Shown piece by piece: positions 41,636-43,019 of a stretch of DNA of 64,000 nucleotides. Under the pieces are notes generated by a model. The model was not told the origin of the DNA. It did not search any database and saw only the letters and a list, made by a program, of their open reading frames with translations. Positions within the stretch are counted from its first letter, which is position 1. Each line of letters begins with the position of its first letter. The translations under genes were made by a program, and so were the position numbers. The stretch spans positions 310,001 through 374,000 of the forward strand of contig NZ_AP024469.1 in NCBI RefSeq assembly GCF_016865365.1. Direction: 5' to 3'. The DNA comes from Geobacter sp. SVR. Its GTDB lineage: Bacteria > Desulfobacterota > Desulfuromonadia > Geobacterales > Pseudopelobacteraceae.

Positions 41636-42028
41636 TCAGCTGCCGGCGTTCCGGGCGATTATGCCGAAGAGTTCATCGACATCCAGCGGCTTGGTAAGGA
41701 CTGCCGTGATCCCGAGTTTTTCGGCCGCCTGATGGAGGTGGGTTGCACAGCCCCCGGTTATCATCACAATGACCAGCCCCGGCGATGTTTTCAGCGCTTC
41801 TTCGGAAAGCTTCAGTCCGTTCATGCCGGGCATGTTGTAGTCGGTCAGCATAAGGCAGAAACTGGTTGATTTCAGCAGTACAAGCGCTTCGGAAGCGTTG
41901 GCGGCGCAGGTCGCCCGGTATCCTTCCATGGCAAGAGAAACTGCCAGCAGGCGTCGATGGTCCCAGTTGTCATCCACGATCAGGATGCCGGCCTTGTCGG
42001 AAGCGGTGAAACTACCACTACAGAGCAT
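41636..42028 (-). CDS. Single-domain response regulator (CheY-like receiver)
   Basis: The 130-residue protein is a lone receiver. It has the acidic pair in LIVDDNWDH, phospho-acceptor Asp in MLTDYNMPGMNGL, Thr in MITGG and Lys in LTKPLDV. There is no output domain. GGGGGAAAAT precedes the ATG. Single receivers act in phosphorelays or on motors. No cognate kinase is adjacent; the dCache-PAS kinase at 43157 is the nearest candidate. Confidence 0.9.
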   Translation of the reverse strand: MLCSGSFTASDKAGILIVDDNWDHRRLLAVSLAMEGYRATCAANASEALVLLKSTSFCLMLTDYNMPGMNGLKLSEEALKTSPGLVIVMITGGCATHLHQAAEKLGITAVLTKPLDVDELFGIIARNAGS

Positions 42029-42099: not shown

Positions 42100-42399
42100 T
42101 CAGGGTGGGGCAAGAAGGAGGCGGTAGCCCAGACCGGGATTATTTCCACATGCATTTTGGCTGGAGAGCGCCGTAATGACAACCAGCCCCTTTTGCTCCA
42201 GTCCGGCGCAGATCTTCGCAAGTTTTTCGTGGGAGAAATCCTCACCAAACGTCCAACGCAGCCGGTCCGCGAAAATCTCTCCCTCTCCGTTTTTTCGACT
42301 TCCGGCGAGCATTATGAAATAGATGCGCAACTCTGCGCTGGTCAGGCACTCGAGTGTTCCCTCGTCATTCAGCTTTTTCAGCAAGCGGAGTTTGTCCAC
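42100..42399 (-). CDS. Small winged-helix-like protein, divergent from an HTH regulator
   Basis: This is 99 residues from GTG 42399, which has AGGGAC upstream. A longer frame to 42453 overlaps the promoter and is rejected. The sequence (LTSAELRIYFIML .. FSHEKLAKICAGLEQKGLVVIT) looks like a winged-helix DNA-binding fold, but I do not recognise a family. A strong promoter reads into it (TTGACA 42453-42448, 17-base spacer, TATTTT 42430-42425). Divergent from the XRE regulator at 42570, suggesting a regulator pair. Confidence 0.6.
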   Translation of the reverse strand: MDKLRLLKKLNDEGTLECLTSAELRIYFIMLAGSRKNGEGEIFADRLRWTFGEDFSHEKLAKICAGLEQKGLVVITALSSQNACGNNPGLGYRLLLAPP

Positions 42400-42424
42400 G
42401 GCAGTCCCTGCTATTTTTGGGCAA

Positions 42425-42514
42425 AAAATACGATAAATAAGACTTAATGTCAAATAAAATGACTGTCAGTCATATTTGATCATAATTGACATACGCTCCA
42501 GTTAAAGGTATACA
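42425..42514. promoter_or_regulatory. Back-to-back promoters with a central palindromic operator
   Basis: On the plus strand TTGACA (42486-42491), 17 bases, TATACA (42509-42514) faces the XRE gene. On the minus strand TTGACA (42453-42448), 17 bases, TATTTT (42430-42425) faces the 99-residue gene. Between the two -35 boxes, ATGACTG-T-CAGTCAT (42459-42473) is a perfect palindrome flanked by TCAAAT and ATTTGA. The region is far more AT-rich than its surroundings. Confidence 0.75.
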
Positions 42515-42569
42515 ATCGAAAACCGTGGCAAGGGAAATGCGCGGCTGATGCGGCATCGGGAGGTTTTCT

Positions 42570-43019
42570 TTGACGGCAGGGATCGGAAGTGCGCTCAAGC
42601 GGCTGAGAATGGAGAGAAAGCTCACCCAGAAGCAATTGGCCGCCAAGGTGAGCGGAGGGCTGGATTATACCTATATTGGCAAGATCGAGCGCGAGGAGCA
42701 GCTTCCCTCCCTGAACATGCTCGTGAAGCTTTCCAGCGCCTTGGCCGTCCCTCTGGCCTCTTTTTTTCGCGAAGAAGACCAGAACATTGCAGCCCTTCTC
42801 CGGCCGGGCAAGGTGCTTGATCTCGGTGCCTCCCGGGAGATGTCCGTACTCCTCAAGGAACTGAAACAACTGGACCGCCGCGATATCCCGTTGCTCGTCG
42901 AGATAGTCCGGGCACTCAACAAGCACGGGAAGAGCCGGAAAAAGGACGATTACTCCCCAGCCGTACAGGAATATGCCTTGGTCGCAGAGGAAGGTTCCGG
43001 CTACCCGAACAACGAATGA
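42570..43019 (+). CDS. XRE-family helix-turn-helix regulator
   Basis: The 149-residue protein has an N-terminal HTH_3 domain (residues about 5-65: LKRLRMERKLTQKQLAAKVSGGLDYTYIGKIEREEQLPSL) and a C-terminal region with an LLKELKQLDRRDIPLLVEIV helix, possibly for dimerisation. It starts at TTG 42570 with GGGAGG seven bases upstream. The strong promoter and palindrome just upstream are the obvious targets for autoregulation. The C-terminal 35 residues are low-complexity and might be non-essential. Confidence 0.85.
   Translation: MTAGIGSALKRLRMERKLTQKQLAAKVSGGLDYTYIGKIEREEQLPSLNMLVKLSSALAVPLASFFREEDQNIAALLRPGKVLDLGASREMSVLLKELKQLDRRDIPLLVEIVRALNKHGKSRKKDDYSPAVQEYALVAEEGSGYPNNE

Follow-up and report, generated by a model that had tools for sequence, protein, structure and literature searches.

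Paired operator-like sites at a divergent XRE locus of Geobacter sp. SVR point to a local switch with a winged-helix-like partner

Introduction

What reads a palindrome that lies between two back-to-back promoters of a bacterial chromosome, and does such a region belong to a phage or to the cell? The question is raised by the window analysed here, a stretch of 64,000 nucleotides from Geobacter sp. SVR (assembly GCF_016865365.1, contig NZ_AP024469.1, positions 310,001 to 374,000; all coordinates below refer to the window), in which a short intergenic region separates the gene of an XRE regulator from that of a protein of 99 residues. An earlier note, made from the letters alone, had described an AT-rich region with one palindrome between two near-consensus promoters and likened it to the compact switches of phages and plasmids.

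The control region

Two back-to-back promoter-like sites can be read directly from the intergenic DNA (42400-42569). The leftward promoter P_L (42425..42453, minus strand) consists of TTGACA at 42453-42448, a spacer of 17 bp and TATTTT at 42430-42425, the rightward promoter P_R (42486..42514, plus strand) of TTGACA at 42486-42491, likewise 17 bp, and TATACA at 42509-42514. Both agree with the consensus in 10 of 12 bases, counted manually for P_R; each of the -10 hexamers matches in only 4 of 6 positions. P_R is omitted from the program-made promoter list, the rule of which requires the -10 hexamer to end in T; TACAAT, 19 bp off, is an alternative -10 element. The AT-richness was also confirmed, the 90 bp from 42425 to 42514 having a GC content of 28% compared to 53.5-64.4% per kb in the surroundings. 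An RBS-like GGGAGG (42558..42563, plus strand) precedes the XRE gene.

The palindrome ATGACTG-T-CAGTCAT (42459-42473) lies between the two -35 boxes, as had been claimed. Of 2000 dinucleotide shuffles of these 90 bp, 43 produced a perfect 7-bp arm around a loop of no more than one base, and 110 did so when loops of up to 7 were allowed. For this reason the palindrome alone is weak evidence and only mildly unusual. With up to one mismatch the 15-mer has no other occurrence in the window genome or in G002, a genome of the same genus. Among 141 genomes of the order an exact match was found in G027, inside an open frame with a GGDEF-like motif; G001 has a match with one mismatch, in a stretch that by eye appears coding and unrelated.

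The XRE regulator and its relatives

The rightward gene (42570..43019, plus strand, TTG start) encodes an XRE regulator of 149 aa that belongs to Pfam HTH_3 (3e-12; 46.8 bits against a cut-off of 23). Its structure model has a mean pLDDT of 70, with residues 69-84 and 124-149 below 50. With a profile of two XRE proteins, 11 strong matches were obtained in the 141 genomes of the order, the protein of the window genome (4.72 Mb, single contig) included; these have E values of 2.3e-35 or better, the next one 5.3e-10. An improved profile, applied to 277 class genomes with the window's among them, returned these 11 again. When 395 genomes were drawn evenly from the phylum, it gave eight more matches outside the class at 1e-40 or better; the next was at 3.7e-17. 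Within the order the distribution is patchy, with the 11 loci falling into 7 of 29 genera, and in a wider scan of genome contigs Pelotalea chapellei was the only close relative among the matches listed. Identity to the window protein is 43-65%, and the stretch YTYIGKIER is invariant among the 11 proteins aligned. Flanking genes are common within g28 and between G104 and G107, which belong to two genera, and mostly different elsewhere.

The relatives allow the control region to be compared across 18 loci, G435 being left out of these counts, where the contig ends 218 bp upstream of the XRE gene and no winged-helix match is found. With the spacer fixed at 17, the P_L -35 box TTGAC[AT] is kept in 17 of them (exception G002), and TATTT follows 17 bp away in 14 (not in G002, G103, G349 and G397). 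When spacers of 16-18 were allowed, TTGAC[AT] with 17 bp was still the best leftward site at 10 of the 11 order loci; in G125 the 17-bp spacer tied with one of 18. On the rightward side, TTGACA-17/18-TATA occurs at 11/11 loci of the order, as obtained with a script that sought that pattern. In G002 the 15-bp palindrome is part of a run of 21 identical alignment columns, and TTGACA and TTAAAGGTATAC as well as the GGAGG before the XRE gene are kept too. At the level of sequence comparison, this conservation of the palindrome region is strong evidence of the kind that the palindrome by itself does not give.

Two operator-like sites at a near-fixed distance

Alignment of the intergenic regions revealed a recurring element of 23 bp, AAATANGA-N7-TCNTATTT, of which the palindrome is the inner part. 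The palindrome core CTGTCAG is common to the window and G002 only; what recurs are the half-sites AAATANGA and TCNTATTT. In the window the element forms the putative operator O_C, TAAAATGA-CTGTCAG-TCATATTT (42455..42477), which lies between the -35 boxes, contains the palindrome, overlaps the run identical with G002 and has 2 mismatches to the consensus. A further putative operator O_L, AAATACGA-TAAATAA-GACTTAAT (42426..42448), extends from the -10 element of P_L to the edge of its -35 box, about 31 bp or some three helical turns from O_C. It is asymmetric, with a right half-site that is degenerate in the window. Since the -10 element of P_L is the complement of the left half of O_L, this predicted operator is placed on the leftward core promoter, with O_C just behind its -35 box. 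The palindrome of the earlier note thus exists, without being the whole operator or the only one: a second operator overlaps the leftward promoter.

Because the first consensus had been derived by eye from the full set of 11 loci and had then served to choose the O_C positions, the sites were evaluated by leave-clade-out and out-of-class tests. O_C is the best match in 13 kb of a leave-clade-out matrix, for which only central sites from other clades were used, and 2 of 500 shuffles reach its score. O_L comes second in the same 13 kb, its score being reached by 1 of 500. With a symmetrised O_C matrix of the other clades, O_C and O_L are the top two sites of 12-13 kb at 9 of 11 loci; in G140 O_L ranks fourth, and in G103 no clear O_L is seen at the expected place. 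Against the local AT-rich background, O_C is reached by 0-9 of 500 shuffles. The best site to the left of O_C is 29-32 bp away at 9 of the 11 loci, and in those nine it is reached by 0-14 of 500 shuffles.

Outside the class, a matrix built only from the central sites of the 11 loci was applied to the eight unseen loci. At four of them (G349, G452, G409 and G314) the top two matches are exactly 31 bp apart. In G397, G444 and G364 the top match lies upstream of the XRE gene with a weak partner, so that one site scores well, and in G435 no good operator site is present in the 218 bp upstream of XRE, where the contig ends. As controls, 81 XRE loci were used, namely 76 weak, mostly HTH-only loci of the genome-contig scan and the five weak loci of the 141-genome search; a spacing of 29-33 bp between the top two matches was found in 0/81. 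The control XRE starts had been set by a fixed offset and only the pair distance was used; by the same offset, the top match is within 400 bp upstream in 12 of the 81. In a shuffle test of the 130 bp beside the winged-helix start, the score was reached in 0/300 in G452 and G364 and in 80-269 of 300 at four of the six loci, where the stretch stops short of the operators.

A third operator-like match, AAATAAGA-CTTAATG-TCAAATAA (42435-42457, 11/14), overlaps O_L and is placed about two helical turns from O_C.

When the 23-bp consensus was searched with up to two mismatches in the 11 genomes, at least 97 matches were obtained, compared to 103 for the reversed pattern. Since the consensus matches do not exceed this control, the XRE protein looks like a local regulator with no large regulon; weaker sites could be missed by this search, because the window's own O_C is 2 mismatches off the consensus.

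The divergent winged-helix-like partner

The XRE gene and the gene of the 99-residue protein (42100..42399, minus strand, GTG start) are read away from the control region. Searches of Pfam, PHROGs, NCBIfam and PADLOC gave no match for the 99-aa protein; Pfam HTH_36 matches two of ten homologues weakly (best E 0.037) and the window protein not at all. Its AlphaFold model (pLDDT 84.3) is a winged helix, and the structural matches (Foldseek, VIA) are mostly winged-helix proteins by name, from many families, with a best Z of 8.7 and none at a Foldseek E below 0.001. The model suggests a winged helix at the level of the fold class, and the label winged-helix-like is retained in this sense. In a search of viral structures no match was below E 0.001 (best 1.9e-3, unnamed), and many names among the matches are those of phage helix-turn-helix proteins. 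Seen as a type II TA pair, the locus would give the XRE regulator a partner that has no library match and models as a winged helix.

A homology search for this protein had been proposed, and the comparison of loci yielded a family. An initial view of the gene as an orphan, from a single-sequence search of 57 genomes that found only the protein itself, was abandoned, the homologues being only 21-35% identical to the window's, far below the 43-65% of the XRE proteins; they surfaced only via the DNA upstream of the XRE orthologues. A small divergent gene starting with [MV]-D-[KR] is present at 10 of the 11 order loci, the motif occurring in 10/10 aligned homologues, for which the start codons were chosen by us. 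Searched against 44 frames, a profile of these ten matches a divergent one at 7 of the 8 out-of-class loci (E 5e-32 to 8e-12). A divergent winged-helix homologue is thus present at 17 of the 18 loci where the DNA extends far enough, the exception being G002, in which no such gene is found at the locus or genome-wide at E 0.01. The idea that the gene had been inserted in the window lineage was also dropped, as G002 is the one that lacks it. In the 141 order genomes the profile finds the ten XRE-linked copies and one marginal match (E 0.006); the ten match by construction, and the weight of this result lies in the near-absence of the family elsewhere at E 0.01.

The receiver gene and the neighbourhood

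Downstream of the 99-aa gene lies that of a stand-alone response-regulator receiver of 130 aa (41636..42028, minus strand; Pfam Response_reg 1.4e-20). A receiver is found at 10 of 11 order loci (missing in G139) and, confirmed with Pfam, at 3 of 7 loci outside the class (G397, G444 and G364). The divergences of the three proteins are correlated, with Spearman coefficients of 0.57 for XRE and winged helix (reached in 4 of 5000 permutations), 0.65 for XRE and receiver (0/5000) and 0.51 for winged helix and receiver (21/5000). Shared species ancestry alone could cause this correlation. The receivers of G140 (L105) and G103 (L107) carry two C-terminal CxxC pairs that by eye resemble a zinc ribbon, and both loci have a further common gene (C14) downstream of XRE.

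To one side or the other, the window contains genes of an AdoHcy hydrolase (sahH), an ArsR-methyltransferase, a DUF2845 protein and a Cache/PAS histidine kinase, furthermore those of a sigma-54 activator, MoeA and an RND transporter. The ArsR-methyltransferase protein has a methyltransferase domain of the small-molecule type. In a Pfam test of the seven flanking proteins and the receiver only housekeeping and signalling functions and no phage gene were found, which bears out the earlier statement that no phage genes lie around. Among the flanking proteins of the window tested there is likewise no R-M gene, the other loci having been inspected by eye only, and no CBASS gene.

Between 43157 and 48293 two genes run towards the XRE gene, one for a Cache/PAS/HAMP histidine kinase and one for a GAF/sigma-54 activator. 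Both could supply a signal to the orphan receiver; no homologous kinase/sigma-54 activator cluster was seen in the stretches around the other ten loci. In G104 (L102) and G107 (L104) the cassette adjoins a tRNA-Leu gene near 5.0 kb, on the far side of which, by eye, tyrosine integrase-like and primase-like proteins (G104) or a methyltransferase-like gene (G107) are encoded. It seems that the tRNA gene beside the cassette has served a mobile element. Directly 3' of XRE in G002 (L003, 2079-2712) a VapBC-type TA-like pair was recognised by eye, consisting of a small DNA-binding-like protein and a PIN-like protein.

Proposed regulation and its alternatives

From the operator-like sites, their spacing, the promoter-like sites and the partner genes, all of which can be read from the sequences, we infer that the XRE protein acts locally, via O_L and O_C, as a repressor dedicated to the leftward unit, and that a signal relieves the repression; to this reading we assign a probability of roughly 0.6. 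An XRE dimer would bind each of the two 23-bp inverted repeats, which lie about three turns of the helix from each other. As O_L extends across the core of P_L and O_C directly precedes its -35 box, occupation of both would keep RNA polymerase off P_L; exclusion of the polymerase by a protein bound at O_L is the simplest presumed effect. The winged-helix gene would thereby be repressed, together with the receiver gene that follows it in most lineages. O_C, which in the window's order is also just upstream of the XRE promoter, may in addition tune XRE expression. Relief by a signal might proceed via the C-terminal helices of XRE, the receiver or the winged-helix protein.

The XRE gene is present at every locus by selection of the loci, and the YTYIGKIER stretch of its protein does not vary among the 11 sequences aligned. 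In G002, by contrast, the winged-helix gene is missing although O_C has been preserved almost exactly and O_L can still be recognised. This points to XRE as the reader, so that the winged-helix protein would not be a needed one. As to the regulated promoter, the best promoter-like site for XRE lies 100 (G452), 103 (G409) and 117 bp (G314) beyond O_C, so that at these three loci both operators remain on the side of the winged-helix gene. Among the putative targets the leftward unit is the most constant. The promoter of XRE itself may also be a target, since only 7-13 bp separate it from the end of O_C at all 11 order loci as well as in G397 and G364; G349 has a gap of 39 bp, and G444 one of 86 bp that rests on weak sites.

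The same evidence bears on a switch with two repressors after the manner of cI and Cro, in which XRE and the winged-helix protein would both bind the operators, repress each other and give two stable states. The divergent layout, the HTH domain of XRE and the winged-helix model of its partner would suit it, as would the finding that no certain winged-helix copy occurs away from XRE in the 141 genomes and the correlated divergence of the two proteins (0.57, 4 of 5000, uncorrected for common species ancestry). We nevertheless consider it unlikely: G002 retains both operators without the winged-helix gene, the probable XRE promoter is 100-117 bp beyond O_C in G452, G409 and G314, and the winged-helix proteins have diverged to 21-35% identity to the window's whereas the XRE proteins are at 43-65%.

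Less probable still is the logic of controller proteins, by which XRE bound at O_C would activate its own promoter at low dose and shut P_L at high dose. Tandem palindromic operators at a fixed spacing, a mark of R-M controllers, are found in O_L and O_C as far as the sequence goes. C.BclI is the second-best solved relative of XRE by sequence (2.2e-12), PADLOC control-protein models match its HTH (best 1.4e-8), and in the window the predicted rightward start follows the centre of O_C at a distance of about 55 bp, O_C ending 7-13 bp before the XRE promoter at 11/11 order loci. In the case of C.Csp231I, two 15-bp palindromic operators are 18 bp apart, about 33 bp from centre to centre, and are reported to accommodate two dimers only as long as the spacer retains its length (PMC4321490). 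The 23-bp sites described here resemble this two-dimer arrangement with about 31 bp between centres, and by analogy the near-fixed spacing of three turns suggests two touching dimers. In contrast to C.Csp231I, no R-M genes stand beside the window copy, and one operator is located in the promoter of the divergent gene, whereas C-protein operators both precede the C gene. Since no such gene was found among the neighbours tested, a role as R-M controller at the window locus is not supported.

That the region is a plain divergent promoter, its conserved bases being just -35 and -10 elements in AT-rich DNA and the palindrome a product of chance, as the 43 of 2000 shuffles and the coincidence of the left half of O_L with the -10 element would allow, is very improbable, as O_C is conserved outside both promoter cores and a matrix of O_C sites only finds O_L as well as the out-of-class pairs at fixed spacing. 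Part of the conservation of O_L could still be promoter constraint, because its left half is the -10 element.

Relation to known switches

Solved relatives of the XRE protein are single-domain XRE/HTH_3 regulators with a helical tail, namely 9sf2, which aligns to positions 3-117 of the XRE profile (4.8e-16), SinR (1b0n) and C.BclI (2b5a). The HTH domain is the same, whereas the regulator described here seems to serve a single divergent unit, in which a winged-helix-like gene is its partner and a receiver often follows. CapH is the repressor of CBASS defence operons. PADLOC capH matches residues 2-118 of XRE (1.1e-8) and HTH_VI residues 5-69 (7.1e-13); the capH match is weak and common to many HTH models, and no CBASS gene occurs among the neighbours tested.

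In the lambdoid cI/cro switch, divergent promoters and repeated operators lie between two genes of DNA-binding proteins. The present locus shares the two divergent promoters and the repeated operators between two DNA-binding-like protein genes; unlike cI/cro, it has no phage genes among the neighbours tested and carries a receiver in the leftward unit. The HTH of XRE resembles phage repressors in PHROGs (best 3.9e-11), a likeness that HTH domains commonly have. A search of IMG/VR viral contigs with short peptide patterns, which covers close relatives, gave no confirmed relative, and neither XRE nor the 99-aa protein was matched in phage records. In plasmids XRE has HTH-level matches in 6 records, none covering 80%, and the 99-aa protein has no match. 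Kinship with the phages and plasmids to whose switches the earlier note likened the region is therefore not supported; nor is a phage element, and "phage switch" is valid only as an analogy. The other part of its proposal, a compact switch, stands in the form of a divergent control region that is probably read by XRE.

Conclusion

Because the layout and the partner gene recur in distantly related bacteria, the region appears to be a switch that has long been retained on the chromosome rather than the relic of a phage. Repressors of the XRE type at divergent promoters are well known. What would be new is the combination of paired operators in such a local switch with a winged-helix partner that had no name before, and no description of this cassette was found among the listed titles and abstract openings of open-licence papers. 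More speculative, and in our view doubtful, is the wider idea of an undescribed cassette of the phylum in which a switch of the phage style, operator and repressor, serves the cell. If it were true, XRE would hold off an unannotated family of winged-helix regulators together with a phosphorylatable receiver, and the receiver would feed a two-component signal back onto the switch.

The 99-residue protein now has a family, tied to the XRE regulator and often to an orphan receiver. What began as a palindrome noticed by eye has become a testable prediction that specifies two operators, their spacing, a probable reader and a regulated promoter, and the predicted switch recurs across this phylum, to which relatives of Geobacter belong.
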